Of a stretch of 51,024 nucleotides of DNA, positions 1 through 44,642 are shown piece by piece; within the stretch, counting starts at the first letter, position 1; each line of letters starts with the position of its first letter. The notes below the pieces were generated by a model. The model worked only from the letters and a program-made list of their open reading frames with translations. It was not told the DNA's origin and did not search any database. The position numbers and the translations under genes were made by a program. Source of the stretch: Candidatus Zixiibacteriota bacterium (lineage in GTDB: Bacteria > Zixibacteria > MSB-5A5 > CAIYYT01); NCBI GenBank assembly GCA_020853795.1, contig JADYYF010000062.1:1-51024 (forward strand), given 5' to 3'.

Positions 1-1259
1 TATCCGTCGACAACACGGCACTCGGCGCCGGAGTGTACAAGGATTCCGTGGCGATCAGCGATGGCACCGCGACCAACTCGCCGCAATACCTGGTCGTGGT
101 CTTCGAAATCTTCTCGGCCTTTCCGGTGATTGACCCCGTGCCGGATTCCATCTATGCCATCGGTTCGGAATCGCAGAACCCGTACAACCGCATTCTGACG
201 ATTGAAAATGACGGCGGCGGGACGCTGCAGTGGTCGTTGACCAAGACCAAGCCGTGGCTGTCGCTGAGCGTCGACACCGGTTCGACGGTACAGGGCTCGC
301 CGTCGACGGTGACGCTGTCGTTCAACCGTCTGGTCGTCGATTTCGGCAAGCAGTACGATACGATCGTGATCCACTCGACCAATGCAATCAATGCGCCGAA
401 GCGGGTACCGGTGACGTTCTGGAAGATGGAAGTTCCGCAGAACATGTCGGTCTCAACCAGCGCGCTGAACTTCAGCAGCGTCGAGTGCGGGACCTACCCG
501 CCGACTGCCTCCAAAACCTTCCTGATCACGCCGTTGCTGGGGACGCCGTTGCTCTACTGGCACTTGTCCTACGACGCGCCGTGGCTGAGCGCAACGCCGG
601 GTTCCGGCAGTGGTCAACAGACGGTGACGGTCAAGGTCAATGTCACGGGGCTGGGGCCGGGCGTCTATATGGACACCATCTACGTCAGTTCCGATTTGGC
701 GCTGGATCCGCCGAAGCAAGTCGTGGTGACGTTTACCGTGGCCGCTACCCCGGCGACGAAGGTCCTGCAACTGTCGCGCGACTCCCTGCTGTACATTTTC
801 AAGTACACGCAGTTGGGAAGCGCGAATCAGAAGGTCTACATCTCCAACCAGCTCGGCGGCTGTGTTGATTGGGCGGCGACTTCGACGGTGCCGTTCCTGA
901 CGCCGGAACCGGCGGCCGGGACCACGGTCGATAGCGTCATGGTCCGCAGCGATCCCATCGGATTGTCGCTGGGTCGCCACACGGGTTCGATCGTGTTTAC
1001 GTCGAATACCGCCTCCAATTCACCGCTGACCCTGCCGGTGGTGGTCTGGATCTACACCTTTGGCGACGCGAACGGCGATGGCATCGTAAATGTCTCGGAC
1101 TGCGTCTATATCGTTAATTACATCTTCAGTGGCGGGCCGGCGCCGGTGCCGATTTTCATTACCGGTGATGTCGACTGCAACCGCCAAATCACAATCTCCG
1201 ACGTGGTCTACCTGCTCAACTGGATCTTCATTGGCGGTCCGGAGCCGTGCTTGTATTAG
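1..1259 (+). CDS. Exported BACON-repeat protein with C-terminal dockerin-like pair (5' truncated)
   Basis: The reading frame is open to the left edge (first full codon at base 3), so the start and any signal peptide lie outside the window. What remains is about 419 residues. It holds three to four Ig-like repeats of roughly 95 residues resembling BACON/abnormal-spindle-like domains, seen as recurring 'PWLS' and 'GVYxDTIxVSS' phrases. The last 65 residues hold two EF-hand-type dockerin loops, DANGDGIVNVSD and DVDCNRQITISD, each followed by a VYxxNxIFxGG helix. The chain stops six residues after the last GGP. Such proteins are secreted or surface attached; the ligand of the BACON repeats is unknown here. 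The family call is firm, the function is not. A strong terminator follows. Confidence 0.85.
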   Translation, partial: SVDNTALGAGVYKDSVAISDGTATNSPQYLVVVFEIFSAFPVIDPVPDSIYAIGSESQNPYNRILTIENDGGGTLQWSLTKTKPWLSLSVDTGSTVQGSPSTVTLSFNRLVVDFGKQYDTIVIHSTNAINAPKRVPVTFWKMEVPQNMSVSTSALNFSSVECGTYPPTASKTFLITPLLGTPLLYWHLSYDAPWLSATPGSGSGQQTVTVKVNVTGLGPGVYMDTIYVSSDLALDPPKQVVVTFTVAATPATKVLQLSRDSLLYIFKYTQLGSANQKVYISNQLGGCVDWAATSTVPFLTPEPAAGTTVDSVMVRSDPIGLSLGRHTGSIVFTSNTASNSPLTLPVVVWIYTFGDANGDGIVNVSDCVYIVNYIFSGGPAPVPIFITGDVDCNRQITISDVVYLLNWIFIGGPEPCLY

Positions 1260-23124: not shown

Positions 23125-23751
23125 CTACGGGCAGCCCGCGCAAGGCGCCGAACCGCCGGCGAAAATGAAGTTCACCAAATAGACGGCGTCGGTGATGTCG
23201 ACGCGGGCGTTGCAGTCGACGTCGCCTGACGCAAGCGGATCGGGTGCCGCACCGCCGGCGAAAATGTAGTTCACGATGAACACGGCGTCCGTGATGTCCA
23301 CCCGGCCGTTGTCGTCGACGTCCCCGCAGAGGTAGGCGGCTCCGGTCGCGAAGTTCTGCCAGAATCCGGAATTGAGCACGAATGAAGCCGAACTGGATGG
23401 ACCGGCCACGGTTTGACCGATGGTGCCATCAAGCACAAAATTGGCCGAGGACATGGTGCCGCCACCGGAGGCAATCACATCCCAATTAATCTGCTCCCCG
23501 GCGCGCGGTGCATTCGGCTTCTGTGTCGCCGGCAAAGTCGGGTTATCAGATTCACTCCCGGATGTCGGCACGGCGGTCTGATTCGTCGTCGTGGCGGCCG
23601 TCGGCGCCGGTTGCGTGACGGGAGAACTGACGGTTGTCGTCGGAACCGACTTAACGGTTTTGGCCTTGGTGTCGGTCTTAGCGGCGGAAGCAGAAGCGAC
23701 AAGGGCCAGCGCAGTCAGTATGATTAGAACACGCGAAATCGGTGATTTCAT
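23125..23751 (-). CDS. Small exported protein with C-terminal dockerin-like pair
   Basis: 208 residues. ATG 23751 follows CAGGAGACTTACC. Signal peptide MKSPISRVLIILTALALVASASA. A Thr/Pro/Ala-rich linker (about 25-90) leads to a short module with INWDVIASGGGTMSSANFVL, then GTIGQTVAG and SGFWQNF (about 95-145). The tail has two EF-hand dockerin loops DVDDNGRVDITD and DVDCNARVDITD, each followed by VxxVNxIFAGG, and ends APCAGCP. Likely a secreted protein held at the surface or exported by recognition of this tail; the middle module is common in such organisms but has no known activity. Confidence 0.85.
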   Translation of the reverse strand: MKSPISRVLIILTALALVASASAAKTDTKAKTVKSVPTTTVSSPVTQPAPTAATTTNQTAVPTSGSESDNPTLPATQKPNAPRAGEQINWDVIASGGGTMSSANFVLDGTIGQTVAGPSSSASFVLNSGFWQNFATGAAYLCGDVDDNGRVDITDAVFIVNYIFAGGAAPDPLASGDVDCNARVDITDAVYLVNFIFAGGSAPCAGCP

Positions 23752-23790
23752 GGTAAGTCTCCTGCGAATATAGATCAAAATAGTACTTTC

Positions 23791-23834: not shown

Positions 23835-25715
23835 TCACTCTGCAGGTTGATCCGGTTCCTGCGGCTTGGTCGCAGCCGGCGGCAACTTGGTCAGTTCCTG
23901 CACGGCCGGAAAGTCGATGCTTCGTTCAAATGGCAGGCCGTAGGCCTGCGGATGGAGATAGCGGCCGCGCTGTTCGGCTGGCTTGGCGATCTCGGAAATC
24001 AGCGGATTGGCCTTGGCAAACTTGTCCGTCCGCACGCCGGTGACCGCCCAGGACACCTTGACGTTGGGCTGATCCGTCCTGATCTGGAAGCGATCGCCCG
24101 AGAGTTCCTTGGCGACGATCGCCTGGGCAAACTGGCCGAGCACCGTCAGTTGGTAGCGATGATCAGAAGTGATCGCCGTGAAGTAGGCGGGCACGGCCAC
24201 TTCCGCCTGACCGCCTGCATCCGTTTCGACATTGCCGGAGACCGTCACCAGCATTTCCGGCGAATCAACCCCGGCCAGTTGCAGATTCTGATTTTCCGGG
24301 TCGGCCGGGTGGTCGATTCGCGTGATCTTAGCGGGCATATAGACATTGCCGCCGACATAGACATCGCCCGTGAAATAGCCGGACCAGTTGGTGGCGTTGC
24401 TGTAAGAGTGGCCATATACGGCGTAGCCGGTACCAACGTTGCTGCCAGTAGTGCCGGAGATACCGTAGGCGTTGCCCCCATTATCCAGCACAAAGTTGAC
24501 AATTCCAATCGATGAAGAACTTGCGGTGTTATCGTGTACGCTGGTGTAGACGCCCGTACCAGTGCTATTACCGGTGACTTCGGCAAACACACCGAATCCC
24601 GAAATCGCGTTGGAGGTGTGTAGCTCGGCGCCGTAGGCGGCAACGCCGTAGCTGGCTTCAGCATACAGGCCATAACTTGAACCCGTCTTAAGATCGACAG
24701 TGCGGGCTCGCCCATGGACATACGCTCCGTATCGATAATCGCCGTCGGAAATGCCCACCCCATAATACCCGTAGACAGTGCCGGCGTTGGCGGCGCCGGC
24801 GGTGGCTCCCGAGGCGCGGCTGCGCATTCCGTAGACCGTGCCGGTGCTGAAATTGTCGAGATCGGCGTAGAGGCCGTAGCGAGATCCCGTCGTGCTGTAG
24901 TTGCGTATGGCCTGGAGCAAATAGGATGAGGACGGACTAAAGGCGTCGGTGCCGATCACGACACCGCTGTTGTTGCCGTAGAAGGTCGAATCGCCGATGT
25001 TCAGGCCGCCGGCAAAGGTCTTCGAGGCGGACACGGTCTGCGATGAAGTCAGATTCATCGCGGTGCCTGAAATCTTGCCGGTGGCAATGGCGGCGGAGTT
25101 GTTGATGTCGGCGTTCACGATCGTGCCGTCGAGCAGGTGCGTCGAGGTCACCCCGGCGTCGGCGATGCCAAGCGATGCACTGCCGGTCGTCGCGCCGCCC
25201 TCCAGCCCCTCGCCGGCCACGACCTCGGTAATATCGCCGGTGCCGACGTTGTCGGTCCCGTCGGCAAACCCAGCGGGGACGTTGGTCAGGTTCGTCCAAC
25301 TATGATAGTGCGATGCCGGCTCTCCCTCAAGCAGGTCGCTGTCATAGCTGTGGAAAGCATATGCCGAAGAAATCATCTGGCGCCGCGGCGCGAGTTCGGG
25401 GCCGCCGTCTACTCTGATCGCCAGATAGCGGTTCGGTTCGACAAAATAGCCGGGAGCGAGGGGATTGATCGAGCCAAGAACGACCGAAAACAGACCATCG
25501 GTGACCGTCACCGCCGGGTGTAACTCCGACCAAAGCTGAATACCGCCACTGTCGCTGTCGAAGAGCGCAAACGCGATTTGATGGGATCCGTTCAGCGCAA
25601 GGCCGGCATCGTCGGTAAGTCGACCTTGATAGCTCAGCAGGAGCGGTGTTGCCGCGAAGAGACCAGTCGAGAAGACGAGCAAGCAAACGAGTGTTGTTAG
25701 TACATGAGGACGCAC
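23835..25715 (-). CDS. Exported fibre-like protein, array member 1
   Basis: 626 residues, GTG 25715 with TAGGAG upstream. Signal peptide to about residue 21 (VCLLVFSTGLFA|ATP). Then an N-terminal module with LLSYQGRLTDDAG and ELAPRRQMISSAYAF (about 22-130). A Gly/Thr/Ser-rich stretch with GTGDITEV and TSTHLLDGTIVNADI follows, then a stalk of irregular YGxY repeats (about 275-455: SRYGLYADLD, YGYYGVG, YGLYAEA, YAVYGHS). The C-terminal domain (about 470-600) begins PAKITRIDHPADPENQNLQLAG and contains YQLTVLGQFAQAIV and VSWAVTGVRTD, then RGRYLHPQAYG. Resembles trimeric fibres with a conserved C-terminal cap; no catalytic motif is seen. Function unknown. Confidence 0.8.
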   Translation of the reverse strand: MRPHVLTTLVCLLVFSTGLFAATPLLLSYQGRLTDDAGLALNGSHQIAFALFDSDSGGIQLWSELHPAVTVTDGLFSVVLGSINPLAPGYFVEPNRYLAIRVDGGPELAPRRQMISSAYAFHSYDSDLLEGEPASHYHSWTNLTNVPAGFADGTDNVGTGDITEVVAGEGLEGGATTGSASLGIADAGVTSTHLLDGTIVNADINNSAAIATGKISGTAMNLTSSQTVSASKTFAGGLNIGDSTFYGNNSGVVIGTDAFSPSSSYLLQAIRNYSTTGSRYGLYADLDNFSTGTVYGMRSRASGATAGAANAGTVYGYYGVGISDGDYRYGAYVHGRARTVDLKTGSSYGLYAEASYGVAAYGAELHTSNAISGFGVFAEVTGNSTGTGVYTSVHDNTASSSSIGIVNFVLDNGGNAYGISGTTGSNVGTGYAVYGHSYSNATNWSGYFTGDVYVGGNVYMPAKITRIDHPADPENQNLQLAGVDSPEMLVTVSGNVETDAGGQAEVAVPAYFTAITSDHRYQLTVLGQFAQAIVAKELSGDRFQIRTDQPNVKVSWAVTGVRTDKFAKANPLISEIAKPAEQRGRYLHPQAYGLPFERSIDFPAVQELTKLPPAATKPQEPDQPAE

Positions 25716-25725
25716 AGCGAGACTC

Positions 25726-25878
25726 CTATGGTTGAAGCGATCTGATTACCTGCGCACCGGTGTCGGGTCGCAGTTGCTGGCAGAACTGGGAACAGCAGTC
25801 CTGCGCGGTGATATCGGACGGCACGGTGCCCTCCCACGGAAAGATCAAGTCGATGTGGTAGATTGTGGCTGCGGCCAT
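25726..25878 (-). CDS. Possible 50-residue Cys-containing peptide in the leader of array member 1
   Basis: An open frame from ATG 25878 encodes about 50 residues, opening MAAATIYHIDLIFPWEG and holding DCCSQFC. It lies between a good promoter (-10 ends 25893) and the GTG of the following gene, so it would be an upstream reading frame in the same mRNA. There is no Shine-Dalgarno sequence and the leader would be only a few nt. It may be non-coding leader. Confidence 0.25.
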   Translation of the reverse strand: MAAATIYHIDLIFPWEGTVPSDITAQDCCSQFCQQLRPDTGAQVIRSLQP

Positions 25879-25892
25879 ACCGGCGCTCCCAA

Positions 25893-25920
25893 AACATAGT
25901 AAACCGGACAAAATTGTCAA
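25893..25920 (-). promoter_or_regulatory. Promoter for array member 1
   Basis: Minus strand: TTGACA (25915-25920), 16-nt spacer, TATGTT (25893-25898). It implies a leader of about 170 nt before GTG 25715. Confidence 0.7.
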
Positions 25921-25975
25921 GGAATTTGATATGGGCGGACTGGCCCCTACTCAGCGAACGCGAGTTATGGGAGAG

Positions 25976-27808
25976 CTATCGATTGTCGGTCGGTTCCGGC
26001 ATGGCCGTCGGCTCCGGCTGGGGCTGTCGCAATTGGCCGTGGCGAAGTTGATCGACACCGCGCTCACGCGGCTGGCCGAAAGCATCTGGCTGCAGGTACG
26101 TGCCGCGCTCCTCTAGCCGCTTCGGCATCTCGACCTGAGTCGGATGCGCGATTGCAAAAGCATCCTTTCTGACTCCGGTTACCTGCCAGGAAACTTCCAG
26201 ATTCGGTTTGTCGGTCTTGATCGTGAATCGGCCGTGATCCAGCTTCCGGAGAACAATCGCTTGAGCAAATTCCCCGATGACCGTTAGTTGGTAGCGGAAC
26301 TCGGCATTGAGAGCATCGAAATAGGGTGGCATTGCAACTACAGCCTCGCCATTGGCATCTGTCGTCACCACGCCGTCGTAGATGACCTTCTGCTCCGGTG
26401 AGTCTACTCCGGCCAATCGGAGTGTTTGATTCTCCGGATCGAGCGGATGGTCGATCTCGGTGAACTTGGCCGGCGTGAAGACATTGCCGGTGACGTTGAC
26501 ATCGCCGGTGAAGTAGCCGGCCCAGTTCTGCACACTGTTGGTAGAAGCGTTACCGTACACACCGTAGCCGCTTCCGAGGTTGCCGGTGGCACTGCCGACG
26601 GCGCCGTAGCCGTCATTGGAGTTGGCATAAGAAGTCCCGACTGTACCATAGCCCTTGTAGTTGTGCTTAGTTAATCCGTAGACTCCGTAGCTCAGGCTCC
26701 CCGAAGAATCGGCCTCGGCGTACACGCCATAAGTGGTTGCGCCATTGTAGGCCTGCGAGTAGACGCCGTAGGTATTCCCGTTTACCGCCCCGGAGCCGCT
26801 CAGGGTGCGCGCGAGCGCGCGGACGCCGTAGCGCTCGCTTCCGTCCGACTCGCCGCGCGCGTACACGCCTTGTACTACGCCGCTGTAGGAGAAGCCGGGC
26901 GTTGACGCCTTACTGAATCCATAAAGCGCGGTAGTCGTGCCGGACGAAGCGTTTTCGAGCCAGGAATAGAGGCCGTAATTGAAGAACGTATCGTCGTACT
27001 TGCGCCGAGCCGACAAGAGCGCGTTCGGCCCGGCCGTGATCCGCCCGATGGCAATGCTCGTGTTGTCGAGCCGCGCCGTGCTGTCGCCGACAATGAGGGC
27101 ATTGTTGAACGTGTTGGTGCCGGAGAAGGTCTGCGAACCGGTCAACGTCGCCATCCCACCGGCGATCTTGCCGGGCGAAATATTCGCGGCGGCGGAGATG
27201 TCGGCATCAACAATCTGACCGTCGCCGATGTGACCGGAGGTCACACCGCCGTTGGCAATGGAAATATTGGCGTCGCCCGAAGCAGTTCCGCCGGTGAGAC
27301 CGCCTGACGTGTTGACTGCCGTGATGTCGCCGCTACCGGCATCGTCGATGCCATCAGCAAATCCGGCCGGAACGCCTCTAATCCCACTCCAGTTTACCGA
27401 ATCGGCAGTCTGGCTGACAATCGCGTATGCGGTTGCGACCAATTGCCGGCGTGGCGACAGCTCCGGATCCACACCGACGGTGATTCCGAGCCATCGGCTG
27501 CCGCCGACGAAGAGTCCGTTGGGAAAGGGGACATCCTGACCGAGCAAGTAAGTGTAAATGCCACCAGAGACCTGCACACTCTGGTAACCCGAGTTCCAGA
27601 GCACCAGGCCGCCTGCGGGGGCATCATATATTTGGAATTTGATCAAGTAGAGCCCATCGGCCACCGGATCGCCGGCGGCGGTGGTCAAGCGTCCTTGAAA
27701 ATTCACCAGGCCGGGAGTCGCGGCTTCGGCGCGACGTGCGACCATTCCCAGGAACGAGAGTAGAATCAGGGCCGCAAGAGTGGTTCGGAGGAAATCGGGC
27801 TTCATCAT
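25976..27808 (-). CDS. Exported fibre-like protein, array member 2
   Basis: 610 residues; ATG 27808 follows AAAGGAGACC. Signal peptide with cleavage after RRAEA. N-terminal module LVNFQGRLTTAAGDPV (about 35-145), linker with GDITAVNTSGGLTGG and VTSGHIGDGQIVDADI, then the conserved KIAGGMATLTGSQTFSGTNTF. The stalk (about 285-450) has repeated YGVY/GYGxxG units. C-terminal domain FTPAKFTEIDHPLDPENQ, YQLTVIGEFAQAIV and VSWQVTGVRKD, then ERGTYLQPDAFGQP. It is closest to array member 3; the two are alike at the nucleotide level around 27.0 and 28.9 kb, pointing to recent duplication. It starts 97 nt after member 3 and is probably co-transcribed. Confidence 0.8.
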   Translation of the reverse strand: MMKPDFLRTTLAALILLSFLGMVARRAEAATPGLVNFQGRLTTAAGDPVADGLYLIKFQIYDAPAGGLVLWNSGYQSVQVSGGIYTYLLGQDVPFPNGLFVGGSRWLGITVGVDPELSPRRQLVATAYAIVSQTADSVNWSGIRGVPAGFADGIDDAGSGDITAVNTSGGLTGGTASGDANISIANGGVTSGHIGDGQIVDADISAAANISPGKIAGGMATLTGSQTFSGTNTFNNALIVGDSTARLDNTSIAIGRITAGPNALLSARRKYDDTFFNYGLYSWLENASSGTTTALYGFSKASTPGFSYSGVVQGVYARGESDGSERYGVRALARTLSGSGAVNGNTYGVYSQAYNGATTYGVYAEADSSGSLSYGVYGLTKHNYKGYGTVGTSYANSNDGYGAVGSATGNLGSGYGVYGNASTNSVQNWAGYFTGDVNVTGNVFTPAKFTEIDHPLDPENQTLRLAGVDSPEQKVIYDGVVTTDANGEAVVAMPPYFDALNAEFRYQLTVIGEFAQAIVLRKLDHGRFTIKTDKPNLEVSWQVTGVRKDAFAIAHPTQVEMPKRLEERGTYLQPDAFGQPRERGVDQLRHGQLRQPQPEPTAMPEPTDNR

Positions 27809-27904
27809 CTCAGGTCTCCTTTAGTGTAGTTCTCAGAGTGCAAGCAGGCGCTCGAAGATTGTCCGCACAAGCGCCGTTCGGGATCGTCGGTCCGCCGCGG
27901 CTGA

Positions 27905-29683
27905 TCATGGTTTCAGTTCAGCCGGAAGCAAGTCATCATTGGTCGTCGGCGTGATCGGCGCGTGCGAGCGCACCGCATCGATGCCCTGATCCCGCGCCCG
28001 ACCGAAGGCCTCCGGCTGCAAATAGGCACCGCGTTCTTGCGGGCGTTTCCGGGACTCAACCACCAGCGGGTTGGCCCGGGCAAAGGCGTCTTTGCGCAAG
28101 CCGGCCACTTGCCAGGAAACCTCGAGATTCGGCTTCTCCGTCTTGATCGTAAATTGGCCGTGTTCGACCTTTCTGATAACGATTGCCTGCGCGAAATCGC
28201 CGATTACCGTCAGTTGATATCGGAAATCAGTAGTGAGTGCATCCGCGTACGCGGGCAGAACGACAACGGCCTCACCGTTGTTGTCCGTGGTCACAATTCC
28301 GTCATAGATCACTTTCTGATCGGGCGCATCAATACCGGCGAGGCGGAGCGTCTGGTTCTCCGGGTCGAGCGGATGATCGATTTGGGTGACCTTGGCCGGC
28401 GTGAAAATCGTGCCGCTCACGTTCACGTCTCCGGCGAAGTAGCCGGCATAGTTCGCCCAGCCGTTGTTGTATGCTTCGCCCCAGACGCCGTAGCCGTAAG
28501 TTGCGTTATTGTTCGCGGCCCCGTGTACGCCGTAACCAGAGCCGCTATTCAGGGCCTTGGCCATGACACCGTAGGCAGCGAACGAGGCAGAGTCGCCGGA
28601 AGCGTACATGCCGAAGACATCCGATCCCCACTTGGCGTTGGAAACAACTCCCCAGGAACCTCCGGTCGTCAGGCCGGGAGTCAGGGAGCGGGAAATCGCC
28701 TGGACGCCGTAGCGAGGGGTGCCGTCGGATTCACCGCGCGCATAAACGCCTTGCGCCAGGCCGCCGTTGCCGGCACCGGGAGTCGAGGCGCGGCTCAGCC
28801 CGTACAATGCCGTGGTCTGGCCGGTGGAAGCGTTTTCAAGCCAGGAATAAAGGCCGTAGTTGAAAAACGTGTCGTTGTACTTGCGGCGCGCGGACAGCAG
28901 CGCCGTCGGTGCGGCGGTAATTCGCCCGAGCGCAATTGTCGTATTGTCAATCCGCGCCGTACTGTCACCGAAAATGACGGTGCTATTGAACGTATTTGCG
29001 CCGGAGAATGTCTGCGTACCGGTGAGTGTTGGAATGCCGCCGGCGATTTTGCCCGGAGCGATGTTGGCGGAATTCGCAATGTCGGCATCGACGATGGTTC
29101 CGTTCTGGATGTGACTTGAAGTTATGCCGCCGGACGCTATCGCAATATTCGCGTCACCCGACGTCACTCCACCCGTCAAGCCGCCGGTTGTGTTCACCGC
29201 GGTGATATCGCCGGTTCCAATGTTGTCAATACCGTCGGCAAACCCGGCCGGCATGTTTCTGATGCCGCCCCAGTTGACCGAATCGGCATTTTGACTGACG
29301 AACGCAAAGCCGCTGGTCAGGAACTGCTTGCGCGGCGTGGACTCCGGATCGGCGCCGACCGTAATTCCCAGCCAGCGGTTGCCGTTGTTGAAAATGCCGT
29401 CGGGAAGGGAAACATCTTGGCCCAGCAGATAGGTGTAAACCCCGCCGGTCACAACTACGGGCTGGATGTTGGAATTCCAAAGCGAGGTCCCGCCGGTGGG
29501 AGCGTCGTAGATCTGGAAGCGCAGGAAGTAAGTGGCGTCGGGAACCGGGTCGCCAGCGGCAGTGGTCAATCGTCCTTGGTAGCTGACGAGACCGGGAACC
29601 GCTGCCTGCAGCGACAGCGCCGCGACCAAGGGCAAGAGCAGGGCCAAGCGGGCAAGAATCGAACGCGCAATTGCACGGGGCAT
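27905..29683 (-). CDS. Exported fibre-like protein, array member 3
   Basis: 592 residues, ATG 29683 with CAAGGAG upstream. Signal peptide ending SLQA before AVPGLVSYQGRLT. Same order as member 2: N-terminal module, GDITAVNTTGGLTGG linker, THI/SHI-type 'TSSHIQNGTIVDADI', KIAGGIPTLTGTQTFSG, a stalk with YGVxA and GYGVxG units (about 285-430), and the C-terminal domain FTPAKVTQIDHPLDPENQ, YQLTVIGDFAQAIV and VSWQVAGLRKD, then ERGAYLQPEAFG. It has its own promoter. Compared with member 2, the stalk differs more than the two end domains, as expected if the stalk faces selection for variation. Confidence 0.8.
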   Translation of the reverse strand: MPRAIARSILARLALLLPLVAALSLQAAVPGLVSYQGRLTTAAGDPVPDATYFLRFQIYDAPTGGTSLWNSNIQPVVVTGGVYTYLLGQDVSLPDGIFNNGNRWLGITVGADPESTPRKQFLTSGFAFVSQNADSVNWGGIRNMPAGFADGIDNIGTGDITAVNTTGGLTGGVTSGDANIAIASGGITSSHIQNGTIVDADIANSANIAPGKIAGGIPTLTGTQTFSGANTFNSTVIFGDSTARIDNTTIALGRITAAPTALLSARRKYNDTFFNYGLYSWLENASTGQTTALYGLSRASTPGAGNGGLAQGVYARGESDGTPRYGVQAISRSLTPGLTTGGSWGVVSNAKWGSDVFGMYASGDSASFAAYGVMAKALNSGSGYGVHGAANNNATYGYGVWGEAYNNGWANYAGYFAGDVNVSGTIFTPAKVTQIDHPLDPENQTLRLAGIDAPDQKVIYDGIVTTDNNGEAVVVLPAYADALTTDFRYQLTVIGDFAQAIVIRKVEHGQFTIKTEKPNLEVSWQVAGLRKDAFARANPLVVESRKRPQERGAYLQPEAFGRARDQGIDAVRSHAPITPTTNDDLLPAELKP

Positions 29684-29728
29684 GGGAATCTCCTTGAGTC
29701 GGATGTCGATAATCGCAAGTATAGCCCC

Positions 29729-29756
29729 ATATTATCCATTTTTGAGGAATTGTAAA
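29729..29756 (-). promoter_or_regulatory. Promoter for array members 3 and 2
   Basis: Minus strand: TTTACA (29751-29756), 16-nt spacer, TAATAT (29729-29734); leader of about 40 nt to ATG 29683. Confidence 0.65.
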
Positions 29757-29785
29757 GCGAAAGTTGAGCCAATGGCAATCGGCGT

Positions 29786-31171
29786 TCAGCGGGCGCCGGC
29801 CTGCGGCAAGAGTTCCGCTTCGAGCCGCCGCAAGCGCACCTCGAGGCTCTCCAGCGCGGCAGCCTGTTCGGCGGCCGCGCGAGCCGCAATCTGTGCGTCT
29901 AATTCGCCTGCAGCCGAGTTGCTTGCAGCCGGCGCGATCCCGTACCAGGTCGGGACAAATAGCGCGGTAAGGTTGATGTTGGCAGCGGTGGCGCCGGCTC
30001 CGGAGTCCTGCCGCCCCAAGAGGTAGAAGTGCCTTGCGCCGGCGTTGACGACAAAGACTGCCTGCACGGTGACAGGCTGGGCAATCGTCGCGCTCGGCTG
30101 CGCCGACGGGACCAGCCAGCGGTAGTCCTGCGAAGCCGGAATCGTTACGGCTTGGTCGGAAACCGCAAAGTGAATTTCGTCCGCTGCACCCTGCAAGTGA
30201 TTGACCTCGAGCTGCGCGGTGGCGATCACAATTACATAGCCGTTGCCGGGGCAGTTCAGGCTGCGATCGGTCAGGACGCCGAGCGAGTTGCTGAGCGCGG
30301 CGGCAGTGACAACGTTTGAGGCCACTCCCGGCTCGTTGGCGATTTCGAGAGCGCTGATCGATCCGACGGGCAGCATCACGGAATTGTCGCCGCCGATAGT
30401 CATGTCAAACAGCGCTGACCGCTCGGCGCCGGTAATGGCGACAGTCGGGCTGGCCGTGCCCGCGTAGTTGCCGTCGATAACCACGCCGCTGTGGCCCTGA
30501 TTATCGCGGTTGATCACCAGCATACCGCCGCCGCCGCTTGACAAATCTGCCGCCAGTTGCGCCGCCGGCGCCGCGGAAAGATCGCGCAGAACCAGCCGCG
30601 AGCCGGAGGCCGTGGCCTCCAAAAGCGCCACCGGCTGCGATGATCCGCCACGGGAGAGCGACAGGCCGCCGTCGCGCGCACTGCTGCCGATGCGAACTGA
30701 TACTGCGTATAGCGAATCGCCGGCCGCCAGTTCGCCCTGAACCGACAAATCACCGAGAATTTCGCCGCCGCCGGCGCCGTCGACACTGCCGGCGCGCAGG
30801 GCGTAAGCGGTTGCCACGATCTGGCGGCGCGGCAACAATTCAGCACCGCCGTTGATGGTGACACCAAGAAACGTGTTAGGAGAATCAAAAATTTCCGGTG
30901 CCAGCGGCGTGACGGCTCCCAGCAGGACTCCATAAAGACCGCCGACGACGGACACATCATCGTGTACCTCTGTCCAGAGCGCAATCCCGCCGACAGGATT
31001 TTCGTAGATGCGGAAGGTGAGTTGAAAACTGCCGTTCAACGCGACACCGCTGTCGTCGGTCAATCGGCCTTGATTGGAAATGAGCAACGGCACGCCGGCA
31101 TTGAGCGGCCGGACGGTTGCCAGCGCGACAAACGCCATCGCCAGCACGACGGTTAACGGGATGCGATTCAT
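29786..31171 (-). CDS. Exported protein sharing the array N-terminal module, coiled-coil end (array member 4)
   Basis: 461 residues. ATG 31171 follows GAGGAAGAG; the longer frame upstream has no ribosome site. Signal peptide MNRIPLTVVLAMAFVALATVRPLNA. The N-terminal module is the one of the array (SNQGRLTDDSGVALNGSFQL, ELLPRRQIVATAYALRA). Then a Gly/Ser-rich beta-type region, a predicted globular part (about 270-400), and a C-terminal coiled coil (about 420-461, ALESLEVRLRRLEAELL). It lacks the YGVY stalk and the IDHPLDPENQ domain. Phage-tail-like S74 proteins often end in such coils, but no S74 motif is evident. Role unknown. Confidence 0.78.
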   Translation of the reverse strand: MNRIPLTVVLAMAFVALATVRPLNAGVPLLISNQGRLTDDSGVALNGSFQLTFRIYENPVGGIALWTEVHDDVSVVGGLYGVLLGAVTPLAPEIFDSPNTFLGVTINGGAELLPRRQIVATAYALRAGSVDGAGGGEILGDLSVQGELAAGDSLYAVSVRIGSSARDGGLSLSRGGSSQPVALLEATASGSRLVLRDLSAAPAAQLAADLSSGGGGMLVINRDNQGHSGVVIDGNYAGTASPTVAITGAERSALFDMTIGGDNSVMLPVGSISALEIANEPGVASNVVTAAALSNSLGVLTDRSLNCPGNGYVIVIATAQLEVNHLQGAADEIHFAVSDQAVTIPASQDYRWLVPSAQPSATIAQPVTVQAVFVVNAGARHFYLLGRQDSGAGATAANINLTALFVPTWYGIAPAASNSAAGELDAQIAARAAAEQAAALESLEVRLRRLEAELLPQAGAR

Positions 31172-31297: not shown

Positions 31298-31325
31298 AAT
31301 ATATCCAATCTTGTGACAAAGTCAA
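31298..31325 (-). promoter_or_regulatory. Promoter for array member 4
   Basis: Minus strand: TTGACT (31320-31325), 16-nt spacer, TATATT (31298-31303); leader about 120 nt. Confidence 0.7.
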
Positions 31326-34215: not shown

Positions 34216-35919
34216 TTAGAGACAAAGCGCCGGTGCTGGACCGCCCGCGAAAATGAAATTGATCAGGTATACCGCATCCGAAATCGACAGCGAGCCGCTG
34301 CAATCCGCATCGCCCGATGAAGTCGGAGCCGGCGGAGTCCCGCCCGAGAAAATGTAATTGATCATGTAGACCGGGTCCGACACGGTGATCTTGCCGTTGC
34401 CGTCAGCGTCGCCAGGCATGAACGCGGGGGCATAGGAGTAGTGCAGCGCTGCCCAGGCATTGACAATTCCCCAGCCATAGTTGTTGTCTGGTGTGGCCGA
34501 CTGCGAGGCCGTCATCATCAAGGCTTCCCGCACCTGCATGTTCGTCCAGGTCGGATGACCGCCCCAGACGATCGCCGCTACTCCGGCCGTCAGCGGACAG
34601 GAGAACGACGTGCCGCTCGAGAACGTGTAGGACGCATCGCCGCCCGACGAAGCCACCGACACTGACGATCCCTGAGCGCAGACTTCCGGCTTGATCCGGC
34701 CGTCGGCGGTCGGACCGCGCGAGGAAAACGAGACAATCGCACCCGAAGAACTAACTGCGCCCACGGTCACAATACTATCGGCATCCGCCGGTGCCCCGAG
34801 GGTTGAGGCGCTTGGCCCGGAATTGCCGGCCGAGTTCACAACTAATATGCCGTTGGCAGCGGCAATATCCGCCGCGACCGTTGTCACGCAGGTGTTGCCG
34901 TCATAATCGGGAGCAGTGTACCAGTCGGTGTAGCCGAGGGAAGAGGACACGATGTCGGTGCCGATGGAATCAACCCACTCGATCGCTGCGACCCAGTTGT
35001 ACTCCTCCTGAATCGTCTCATCGCGCACGTCTTCAGTCTTGCACAAAATGAACGAAGCTTCGTACGCCGGGCCGTAGTGGACGCCCGGGTTCTCGCCGCC
35101 GGAGGTCGACCAGGTTGAGGTTCCGTGGCTCCAGGCGGAGGACCAGTCGGCGGCCTCGTTGGCGACGTTGCCGTCGTTGTAAACAAAGTCCCATTCCGCG
35201 AGGACGCGCCCGTCGAGATAGGCATTCGCGAAGGAATTGTGCGTCTTGCGGAAGCCGGTATCAAACATCGAAATAATCATGCCCTGGCCGGCATAGCCGG
35301 AATCGTGGCACACCGGAACATTGATCTGCGCCAACTGGGTCAGAGAATTTCCGTACGACAGCGCGTGTGTGCCCAACGCCTGTTTCTCCACCGGGGCATC
35401 GCCTTTGAGCGGTTCTTCCGCCGGCAACGAACGTTTCATCGCCACGGCCGGCTCGATCGATGCGACGAATTCGGCGGTGGCGAGGCTGCCCAGGCGATAT
35501 GGTTGGATCTCGATCGCCGCAGCGTTCAACCACTTGGAAGTGCGCAAGACACGCGCTCCCTGCTGGGTCAGTTGGTCAACATAGCGCGCGTAAACCGGCA
35601 AATCGGTGAACTTCACGTCGGAGACGCCATGCTTAAGGCGGCGCGCCTTGGCTCGCTCGGTCATGCCGGCATCAACAAGCTGCGCGGCTTGCTGAAGTTG
35701 TGCCTTGTTGAATATCCCCTTGTCTGTGAAGTAGACCCAGACCTTGACCAGACCGTCAGTTTGGTGGTTCGCCAGGTATTGAACTGCCCGGTCGGTGATC
35801 ACGGCGGCGCGCTTGGCGCGCACCAGCGTCGGATCCTCGGCTTCGGGTCGAACTTTAGCAACGGCCATGGATATTGCCAGCAGCGATAACGCGGCGATCC
35901 AAAGGCGGAAATTGAGCAT
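34216..35919 (-). CDS. Secreted subtilisin-family (S8) protease with dockerin-like tail
   Basis: 567 residues, ATG 35919 with GAGGTG upstream. Signal peptide to about residue 21 (LAISMAVA). Residues about 25-190 look like an inhibitor/propeptide region rich in Lys and Arg. The S8 domain follows at about 200-490 with the triad D220 in MFDTG, H265 in SHGTS and S438 in SGTSFSCP, plus oxyanion Asn in NSAGNSG. The tail has two EF-hand dockerin loops DADGNGKITVSD and DADCSGSLSISD, ending AGGPAPALCL. An extracellular protease sharing its tail with two other proteins of the window, so probably delivered by the same route. Own promoter and terminator. Confidence 0.93.
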   Translation of the reverse strand: MLNFRLWIAALSLLAISMAVAKVRPEAEDPTLVRAKRAAVITDRAVQYLANHQTDGLVKVWVYFTDKGIFNKAQLQQAAQLVDAGMTERAKARRLKHGVSDVKFTDLPVYARYVDQLTQQGARVLRTSKWLNAAAIEIQPYRLGSLATAEFVASIEPAVAMKRSLPAEEPLKGDAPVEKQALGTHALSYGNSLTQLAQINVPVCHDSGYAGQGMIISMFDTGFRKTHNSFANAYLDGRVLAEWDFVYNDGNVANEAADWSSAWSHGTSTWSTSGGENPGVHYGPAYEASFILCKTEDVRDETIQEEYNWVAAIEWVDSIGTDIVSSSLGYTDWYTAPDYDGNTCVTTVAADIAAANGILVVNSAGNSGPSASTLGAPADADSIVTVGAVSSSGAIVSFSSRGPTADGRIKPEVCAQGSSVSVASSGGDASYTFSSGTSFSCPLTAGVAAIVWGGHPTWTNMQVREALMMTASQSATPDNNYGWGIVNAWAALHYSYAPAFMPGDADGNGKITVSDPVYMINYIFSGGTPPAPTSSGDADCSGSLSISDAVYLINFIFAGGPAPALCL

Positions 35920-42497: not shown

Positions 42498-42548
42498 CTC
42501 GGGCGAGATTAAGCTCAGGACTTTAACAGCCTTAAGGAGATGATCGCA

Positions 42549-44642
42549 ATGAAGTCGATTTCCCCCTTGCGCAAGCTCGCCGTCGGGTTGATGATCGCTG
42601 CCGCCGCCGCGCTCGCGTTTGTGATCGCTGGCTGCGGTGATGACACGCTCTCGGGCAGCGGCAATTACTTCATCGAAACTATCTATTCGACGCCGTCGTC
42701 CGAGGTCACCAAGGGTTCGACCGTGATTGTCGAAGCCCAGGTGACCGACGCCAACGGCAACCCGGTCGCCGGCCGCGAAGTTACCTTCACGGTCAGCCCG
42801 ACGTCGCTCGGCTACTTCACACCGACGACGGATACCTCCGATGCCAGCGGTTTGGTCGCCGCGGTGTTTACCGCGTCCTCCGCCGGTAACGCCACGCTCA
42901 CCGCCACCACCGGCGGCAACTTCAAGAGCAAGGCGATGCGCATTAACGAATCCGCCGTCTCCACCGGCCGCGTCTCGATCGAACTGACGCCGGCGCTGAT
43001 GACGGCCAACGGCGAAGACAGCGCGTTTGTCACGATCACGGCCGAGACTTCCGCCGGCGCCCCCGTCGCCGACGGCACCGTGCTCTACCTGGTCGCGGGT
43101 GAACGCTTTGAAGATCGCGATCAGGACGGCTATTACACGCAGGGCATCGACAGTCTGATGTTCGACGCCAACGCCAACGGCCGTTGGGATCCGATCGGTT
43201 CAATTCCGTCAACCGTTCAAACCAGTGGCGGCTCCGCGTCGGTGATCTACCGCGCCGGCAGCCAGGCCACGACGGTCTATATCCGCGCTACCATGATCGA
43301 CGGCTCCGAAGTCGAATACTCCGAAATTCCGGCGAAGCTGAATCCGAATACCTCGGTCGCGTCGATTACGATGACCCACAACGGCGAGGACCTGCGCGTC
43401 CGCGGCGTTGGCGGCATCGAATTCTCGATCGTGACCGCCACGGCCTACGATCAGTACGGCAACAAGGTGCCGGAAGGCATTCCGATTGACTTTACCATCG
43501 CCAACGGTCCGAACGGCGGCGAGAATATCCAGGGCCAGGGCTACGGTCCGGTAACGGTTGCGACCAATTCGTCCGGACAGGCCTCGGTGACCATCTATTC
43601 CGGAACCGTCGCGGGAACAATTCGTCTCCGCGCCTCCTCCGGCTCGGTGCTCTCAGCGGTGACGCACCTGACGATCAACGCCGGTCCGCCGGCGCACCTG
43701 TCGGTCGGCGTGGCCAGCCTGAATATCCGCGCGTGGGATGTCGTGAACGTGCTGAACCGGATCGCGGTCAATGTCAACGACATCTACGGCAACCCCGTGC
43801 CTGACTCGACCTCGGTGTACTTTGGTACCGAAGAAGGTACCGTGCAGGCCGAAGCGATGACCGGCACGCAGTGGCCGGACGGTATTGTCGAAGTCGACTG
43901 GTACTCCGGTAATCCGCGCAACGATGGCCTCGCGCATGTCTTCGTAAGCACCGCGGGCGGCCAGGTCGGCGACACGGTGATGTTCATCACCTCCGGTCCC
44001 TCCGTTTACATGACCGCGCTGGCTTACCCCAGCTCGCTCATCGCCGACGGCGAAGACAAGGGTACCGTGATCATCCAGGTGCGCGACATCAACAATAACT
44101 GGGTCGTGCCGGGAACACCGGTCACCTTCAAGACTGATTTCGGTACCATTAATGGCGGCGGCACGCAGGACGGCTGGATCAACTCGCTCTATGAGACCGA
44201 GTACCACTCCGAAGTCCTGAAGCGCGACTATTCGCCGGTCTCGCCGGATGACGGCATCGGCGCGGTCGCGGTGGTGCGTTATCAGGCCGGCGGTGTTGTC
44301 GGTCCCGATGCCACCTTCCAGACGCTGTTCCTGACCGGTTATACCTACGTCGGCAACTGCGACATTATCATCGAACCCGAAATCGAGCCGGGCGCTACCG
44401 TCCCGTTCTCGATCGTGGTGAAAGACCGCGCGGGCAATCCGCTCGGCGGCCATTCCCTTGAGGTTTCGGCCAGCCTGGGTACGCTGTCGGCCGTCTTCCT
44501 GACGACCGATTCTTATGGCGAAGCCAACCTGTTCTTCACCGCTCCGGCCTCGATCGGCGCGTCGATCATCACGGTCAACGACCGCGATCCGCGCGGCGAA
44601 GTCGCCTTTGCCAAGAAGGTGAAGATCAAGAACGAAGAATAG
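42549..44642 (+). CDS. Lipoprotein with Big-1-type Ig-like repeats, next to pilQ
   Basis: 697 residues. ATG 42549 is chosen because AAGGAG abuts the other ATG at 42540. Lipoprotein signal ends FVIAGC (Cys about 28). Several invasin-type Ig-like (Big-1) repeats follow, each with 'VTDANGNPVAGREVTF' or 'DQYGNKVPEGIPIDFT' openings and 'GxAxVxF' ends. One repeat holds a Ca-loop-like insert DRDQDGYYTQG and DANANGRWDP (about 195-220). It lies 51 nt behind pilQ with the same strand, so it is probably in the pilus operon: a candidate secretin-associated or surface adhesin lipoprotein. A terminator follows. Confidence 0.85.
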   Translation: MKSISPLRKLAVGLMIAAAAALAFVIAGCGDDTLSGSGNYFIETIYSTPSSEVTKGSTVIVEAQVTDANGNPVAGREVTFTVSPTSLGYFTPTTDTSDASGLVAAVFTASSAGNATLTATTGGNFKSKAMRINESAVSTGRVSIELTPALMTANGEDSAFVTITAETSAGAPVADGTVLYLVAGERFEDRDQDGYYTQGIDSLMFDANANGRWDPIGSIPSTVQTSGGSASVIYRAGSQATTVYIRATMIDGSEVEYSEIPAKLNPNTSVASITMTHNGEDLRVRGVGGIEFSIVTATAYDQYGNKVPEGIPIDFTIANGPNGGENIQGQGYGPVTVATNSSGQASVTIYSGTVAGTIRLRASSGSVLSAVTHLTINAGPPAHLSVGVASLNIRAWDVVNVLNRIAVNVNDIYGNPVPDSTSVYFGTEEGTVQAEAMTGTQWPDGIVEVDWYSGNPRNDGLAHVFVSTAGGQVGDTVMFITSGPSVYMTALAYPSSLIADGEDKGTVIIQVRDINNNWVVPGTPVTFKTDFGTINGGGTQDGWINSLYETEYHSEVLKRDYSPVSPDDGIGAVAVVRYQAGGVVGPDATFQTLFLTGYTYVGNCDIIIEPEIEPGATVPFSIVVKDRAGNPLGGHSLEVSASLGTLSAVFLTTDSYGEANLFFTAPASIGASIITVNDRDPRGEVAFAKKVKIKNEE

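Follow-up and report, generated by a model that had tools for sequence, protein, structure and literature searches.

The closest described systems are the mosaic adhesive trimer (MAT) proteins of Bdellovibrio bacteriovorus (Caulton et al. 2024, PMC10769870), adhesive fibres with which this predator grips its prey, and which were presented as a predator's toolkit. The superfamily is marked by a conserved β-rich N-terminal domain of ~130 aa behind a signal peptide; a fibre-like middle follows, the C-terminal tips vary, S74 and TNF-like domains being among them, and each genome holds many copies. We analysed a 51,024-nucleotide window of Zixibacterium DNA containing four fibre genes that share these traits: a signal peptide, a β-rich N-module directly behind it with detectable profile similarity to that of the MATs, a fibre-like middle, tips of several kinds, and many relatives in the same genome. 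Compared with the MATs, the Zixibacterium proteins are shorter (460-870 aa versus ~1,000), and their tips include two types that are not named in the part of that study considered here, an IDHP cap and a DVAEPFE type. Their N-module scores below the curated cut-off of the MAT profile. We conclude that the array probably belongs to a repertoire of MAT-like mosaic adhesive fibres encoded across the genome, for which surface display, adhesion and trimer formation are putative.

Architecture of the fibre gene array

The four fibre genes, designated A, B, C and D, are neighbours on the minus strand at 23835-31171, and their initial annotation had the coordinates exactly right. A (23835-25715, 626 aa), B (25976-27808, 610 aa) and C (27905-29683, 592 aa) each encode a signal peptide, an N-module, a stalk and an IDHP cap, while D (29786-31171, 461 aa from ATG) encodes a signal peptide and N-module followed by an unrelated spacer, a TNF/C1q-like tip and a C-terminal coiled coil. 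Each gene is preceded by a ribosome-binding site; A starts with GTG, with AGGAG upstream. By inspection, all four N-termini are typical signal peptides. Similarity of protein B to the others is far above chance (E=2e-245 with C, 6e-134 with A and 8e-20 with D), and the features first recognised from the sequence alone, namely a common signal peptide and QGRLT...PRRQ N-module in all four adjacent genes and common YG-x-Y-repeat stalk and C-terminal cap motifs in A, B and C, were borne out. The array is flanked by ribosomal-protein-type genes (EF-Ts, S2, S9, L13) and an isochorismatase-like hydrolase gene. Three promoters had also been proposed, and promoter-like sites are indeed found on the minus strand upstream of D (31298-31325), C (29749-29778) and A (25893-25920), as consensus matches only, in a region that has 15 such sites where 2.6 would be expected; the same consensus scan detected none upstream of B. 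An Rfam search gave no match.

The stalks of A (24318-25340), B (26456-27409) and C (28382-29290) are rich in Gly, Ala, Ser and Thr, and contain six, seven and five YG-x-Y repeats, respectively, at irregular spacing. Identities for N-module, stalk and cap are 66/66/65% between B and C, 42/44/53% between A and B, and 40/47/50% between A and C. At the level of whole modules the B-C comparison is thus even; within them, identity is 72-79% in the proximal stalk, 42-45% in the distal YG-repeat half and ~76% in the cap core. The earlier description of conserved ends and differing stalks therefore holds only for the distal half, as conservation of the proximal stalk equals or exceeds that of the N-module. 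In comparison with a sister species, the stalk can rank as the most conserved module, as between C and its counterpart C' (40/77/64%). A PDB sequence search with protein B gave no relative, and the PHROGs collection gave weak matches only (phrog_28536, 1e-5; phrog_6616, tail).

The N-module and its repertoire in the genome and phylum

The N-module, of ~105 residues, occupies 25341-25655 in A, 27410-27724 in B, 29291-29605 in C and 30785-31099 in D, all on the minus strand. It matches the NCBIfam model NF053851 (Bdello_MAT_N) in A (E=7.7e-9, 35.5 bits), B (E=9.7e-4) and C (E=4.7e-3), with no match for D even at E=1; the segments of B, C and D were placed by alignment (A3), and residues 31-120 of the D model have pLDDT of ~90-98. 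Eleven places in the genome match NF053851, the best with E of about 9e-11 to 3.3e-10 and 42 bits, all below the curated cut-off of 60 bits, and the match covers only positions ~2-88 of 162. Among 69 cap proteins found in other genomes, 33 also match the model (best 3.5e-13). No relative was returned by a PDB sequence search with the N-module profile, and a Pfam search gave nothing even at E=10. Profile similarity thus makes the N-module a divergent relative of the Bdellovibrio MAT N-domain, with significant matches that are all sub-threshold and partial; membership of the MAT family is not claimed outright, and the trimer and its surface display are putative.

Paralogues were identified by sequence search of the genome (3.56 Mb, 99.9% complete), which revealed 17 stretches of similarity distributed over at least 14 genes; N-module matches number 16, and proteins with this module are encoded on about ten contigs besides that of the array. 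Four classes of tip are found: the IDHP cap (contig C101), S74 (C84, C32, C140 and C182), the TNF-like D type (C30 and C129) and DVAEPFE (C38 and C101). A mosaic of different C-terminal tips on the same N-domain is therefore present within one genome. All four S74 domains of the genome are on proteins of the N-module family, the N-module of the C182 copy being severed by the contig end, and a domain search found no C-terminal S74 domain (PF13884) in A-D. In the comparison of gene number among related genomes that had been suggested, 120 of the 132 phylum members compared have the N-module, at 1-27 copies each. The D tip is present in 88 of 128 genomes of the phylum, and the IDHP cap in 9 of 39 relatives.

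The tip of D and the IDHP cap

Everything after the N-module of D is unrelated to A, B and C. The AlphaFold model of D shows a confident N-module, followed by an eight-stranded sandwich at residues 283-407 (29951-30325, minus strand) and a terminal coiled-coil helix of ~40 residues at 420-460 (29792-29914, minus strand). For this domain, a Foldseek search of the PDB gave the BC2L-C lectin (2wq4, E=3.7e-5, TMt 0.67), as well as PLTL, C1q and CD40L, indicating a jelly roll of TNF type in a domain modelled at pLDDT of only ~54-84 by block. The N-terminal TNF-like lectin of BC2L-C and PLTL have the same fold as the D tip at TMt 0.54-0.67, but are only 8-16% identical to it. Caulton et al. (PMC10769870) describe TNF-like MAT tips in Bd2439 and Bd2734 of Bdellovibrio, and for Bd2734 they report 2WQ4 as the top structural match. 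Higher-ranked matches of D to lambda gpJ and cyanophage A4 were disregarded, since they extend across the poorly modelled central part at an rmsd of more than 30 Å. A PDB sequence search with the D-tip profile found no relative, and a scan of viral contigs did not detect the D tip. D had been described as exchanging its stalk for a coiled coil; the terminal coiled coil exists, but it is preceded by the TNF/C1q-like domain, and the replacement extends to all that follows the N-module.

The IDHP cap is a C-terminal domain of ~140 residues that opens with IDHPLDPEN. Together with a short C-terminal tail, it is encoded at 23838-24317 in A, at 27908-28381 in C and at 25979-26455 in B, where it is predicted to form a β-sandwich (mean pLDDT 92.4), all on the minus strand. 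A scan of 84,980 species genomes confirmed at least 534 cap relatives in at least 11 phyla; the best 80 of these are from Bacteroidota (31), Acidobacteriota (21), Zixibacteria (7), Planctomycetota (5) and Armatimonadota (3), with one or two each in six other bacterial phyla. An archaeal locus (L074) was left out as probable contamination. This search with the cap alone, proposed in the initial annotation, revealed that the cap is always the last domain in full-length genes (tail median 9 residues, maximum 52), and that it is joined to diverse stalks, of which 9 in a set of 69 proteins contain collagen repeats. At roughly one in four of the cap loci examined, at least two family genes lie within 8 kb. 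The cap is also found in cultured isolates, namely Chryseobacterium daecheongense, Lacihabitans soyangensis and Herbiconiux gentiana. Neither Pfam (nothing even at E=10) nor NCBIfam has a model for it, and a PDB sequence search with the cap profile found no relative.

The cap is shared with phage tail fibres. It matches by sequence a tail fibre of Prochlorococcus phage P-SSM2 (2e-8) and a minor tail protein of Arthrobacter phage Mufasa8 (4e-12), and also ends proteins of cyanophage S-TIM54 and of Arthrobacter phages. By sequence, predicted fold or both, it is carried by tail fibres of cyanophages P-SSM2 and S-SM2 and Arthrobacter phages Mufasa8 and Sonali. The AlphaFold model of the cap superposes on predicted phage fibres at 1.6-1.9 Å over ~140-150 columns, with E=1.5e-9 for the predicted fold of P-SSM2 Q58M60 (150 columns, rmsd 1.9). 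In the PDB, the seven best matches of the cap are all phage or pyocin tailspikes and fibres, although these are weak (best E 3.5e-3, TM ~0.3 of query). The R-pyocin tail-fibre foot and related tailspike ends (6ct8, 6cl6, 4ru5) have a partial jelly-roll likeness to the cap, with E of 0.016-0.08, a TM-score of ~0.3 of query and ~77-95 columns aligned. In contrast to the array proteins, the phage fibres are virion parts and are not exported, and the nine viral loci lack the N-module. Because phage tail fibres that end in the cap are not sorted, the sorting role considered for this domain in the initial annotation is unlikely.

Module exchange and the proposed function of the fibres

A contig of a sister species (L146) is collinear with the four-gene array and both flanks. 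At the syntenic position of D, it has a 711-aa open frame, D', with an N-module 52% identical to that of D, followed, by inspection, by YadA-like head repeats and an S74-like end that are unrelated to the D tip. In the N-module tree, B and C group with the non-syntenic G003_C349 and G002_C240 (97/97), while C+C' (p=0.001) and B+B' (p=0.0008) are rejected; in the stalk tree, C and C' form a clade (99/97) and B+C is rejected (p=0.019), the tested clades having been partly picked after identities were seen and the alignments being short. N-modules, stalks and tips thus differ in their history. The replaced tip of D at a syntenic position and the conflicting N-module and stalk trees indicate that variety arises by exchange of whole modules and not by point diversification. 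Such exchanges are not recent, since the best shared 300-nt blocks of B and C have just 68-74% DNA identity, and recent B-C gene conversion was rejected on the same grounds. In homologous modules pN reaches at most about half of pS, with dS saturated (pS ~0.6-0.9), which implies that purifying selection dominates on average. Of the initial proposal of surface fibres or adhesins under diversifying pressure, the modular family of exported fibre-like proteins stands, but diversifying pressure in the usual sense is not supported, given these ratios and the exchange of whole modules.

In the proposed mechanism, the signal peptide would export each protein, and the ~105-residue N-module, by analogy with the Bdellovibrio MATs, would most likely form a base anchoring the fibre to the cell surface. 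The Gly-rich YG-repeat stalk would most likely form a long, trimeric, β-structured shaft. The C-terminal domain would be an exchangeable tip, assisting the folding of the trimer and making contact with a ligand, which is probably a glycan of a surface or of another cell: the IDHP cap in A, B and C, a TNF/C1q-like lectin fold in D, and S74 or DVAEPFE in other copies. New combinations come from whole-module exchange between loci.

A different division of labour, to which we give somewhat under an even chance, would make the cap not a ligand-binding tip but a C-terminal domain for trimerisation or registration that acts in place of the S74 chaperone without proteolysis, with binding by the stalk surface. 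Across its 11 or more phyla the cap keeps ~50% identity, and positions that are invariant or nearly so lie within and next to its strands; such conservation is more than expected of a receptor-binding tip and favours a structural role. The cap also takes the terminal position of S74 in paralogues, and variability is highest in the distal stalk. However, the structures nearest to the cap in fold include those of the R-pyocin foot and the phi297 tailspike end, proposed carbohydrate-binding jelly rolls (PMC6363177), and these favour binding; the two roles are not exclusive.

The remaining explanations concern the array as a whole. An exported dockerin-type protein (23125-23778, minus strand; Dockerin_1 E=1.9e-8) is encoded directly downstream of A, and a similar gene adjoins a cap gene in two relatives (loci L146 and L149), making three genomes with the family in which this arrangement occurs; the Zixibacterium genome also has cohesin-like domains. 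A-D might accordingly be structural proteins of a surface layer, sheath or cell-cell or biofilm matrix, perhaps linked to the dockerin protein, but this seems improbable, as tip swaps and large copy-number variation suit recognition better than a fixed structural layer, and D has a lectin-like fold. That A-D are remains of prophage tail-fibre genes is highly improbable: cap and S74 domains do occur in phage tail fibres too, but the genes have intact long frames and housekeeping neighbours, there are no virion genes beside the array in the window, and none of the nine viral loci has the N-module. A prophage origin was rejected on the conserved synteny in the sister species and the signal peptides.

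We thus favour MAT-like mosaic adhesive fibres. More tentatively, with a chance a little short of even, the IDHP cap may be a so far unnamed fibre-tip domain that forms trimers independently of S74 and is passed between tail fibres of phages and the exported fibres of at least 11 bacterial phyla, and that together with the N-module and the other tips would make up an exchangeable kit for MAT-like recognition fibres in whole non-model phyla. The cap is a widespread domain still outside the family databases, and its presence in cultured isolates makes its role open to testing. For the uncultured Zixibacteria, the mosaic fibre genes provide genome-based clues to attachment, and the occurrence of related fibres in ~90% of their genomes suggests that the architecture serves recognition at the cell surface in general and is not specific to predation.

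Tips and stalks of related fibres

Two fibres that share the N-terminal module of the array, encoded on other contigs of the same genome (L024 on C38 and L026 on C101), end at the C-terminus in a DVAEPFE...GRVYC domain. The best that this domain gave was a weak, sub-threshold match (1.5e-4) to PF23982, the minor capsid protein XM1_gp53, which makes it a further phage-like tip without a name. Another paralogue, an 867-aa fibre with an S74 end (L030 on C140, 3327-5930), has a stalk containing repeated D-x-D-x-D/N-G units that are calcium-loop-like.

Cap loci in other genomes

On a Calditrichota contig (L073, 73-2629), a cap fibre gene is directly followed by a fibre gene whose tip is of the D type, so that the two kinds are paired as they are in the window array. 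The cap locus L074, on a contig filed as Methanoregulaceae archaeon, is probably contamination of the archaeal MAG, since its cap proteins are nearly identical to those of a Fimbriimonadaceae bin (L075).

Other proteins encoded in the window

An invasin-like protein (42540-44642, plus strand; Big_1, 1.1e-35; Invasin_D3, 1.3e-28) is a putative second adhesin. Domain matches also revealed a subtilase (S8) protease with a terminal dockerin domain (34216-35919, minus strand) and a protein with a BACON_2 match (33-1259, plus strand). A tblastn search with the sister gene as query indicated that the C-terminus of the latter is also similar to the dockerin portion of the protein encoded at 23125-23778.

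A dockerin gene beside the cap fibre gene

An exported dockerin-type protein is encoded directly after a cap fibre gene in the window (23125-23778, minus strand) and in two family relatives (L146, 7216-7833; L149, 4432-4962). Because of this adjacency, and because the genome carrying the array encodes several cohesin-like domains, a link between the fibres and the dockerin protein is conceivable.
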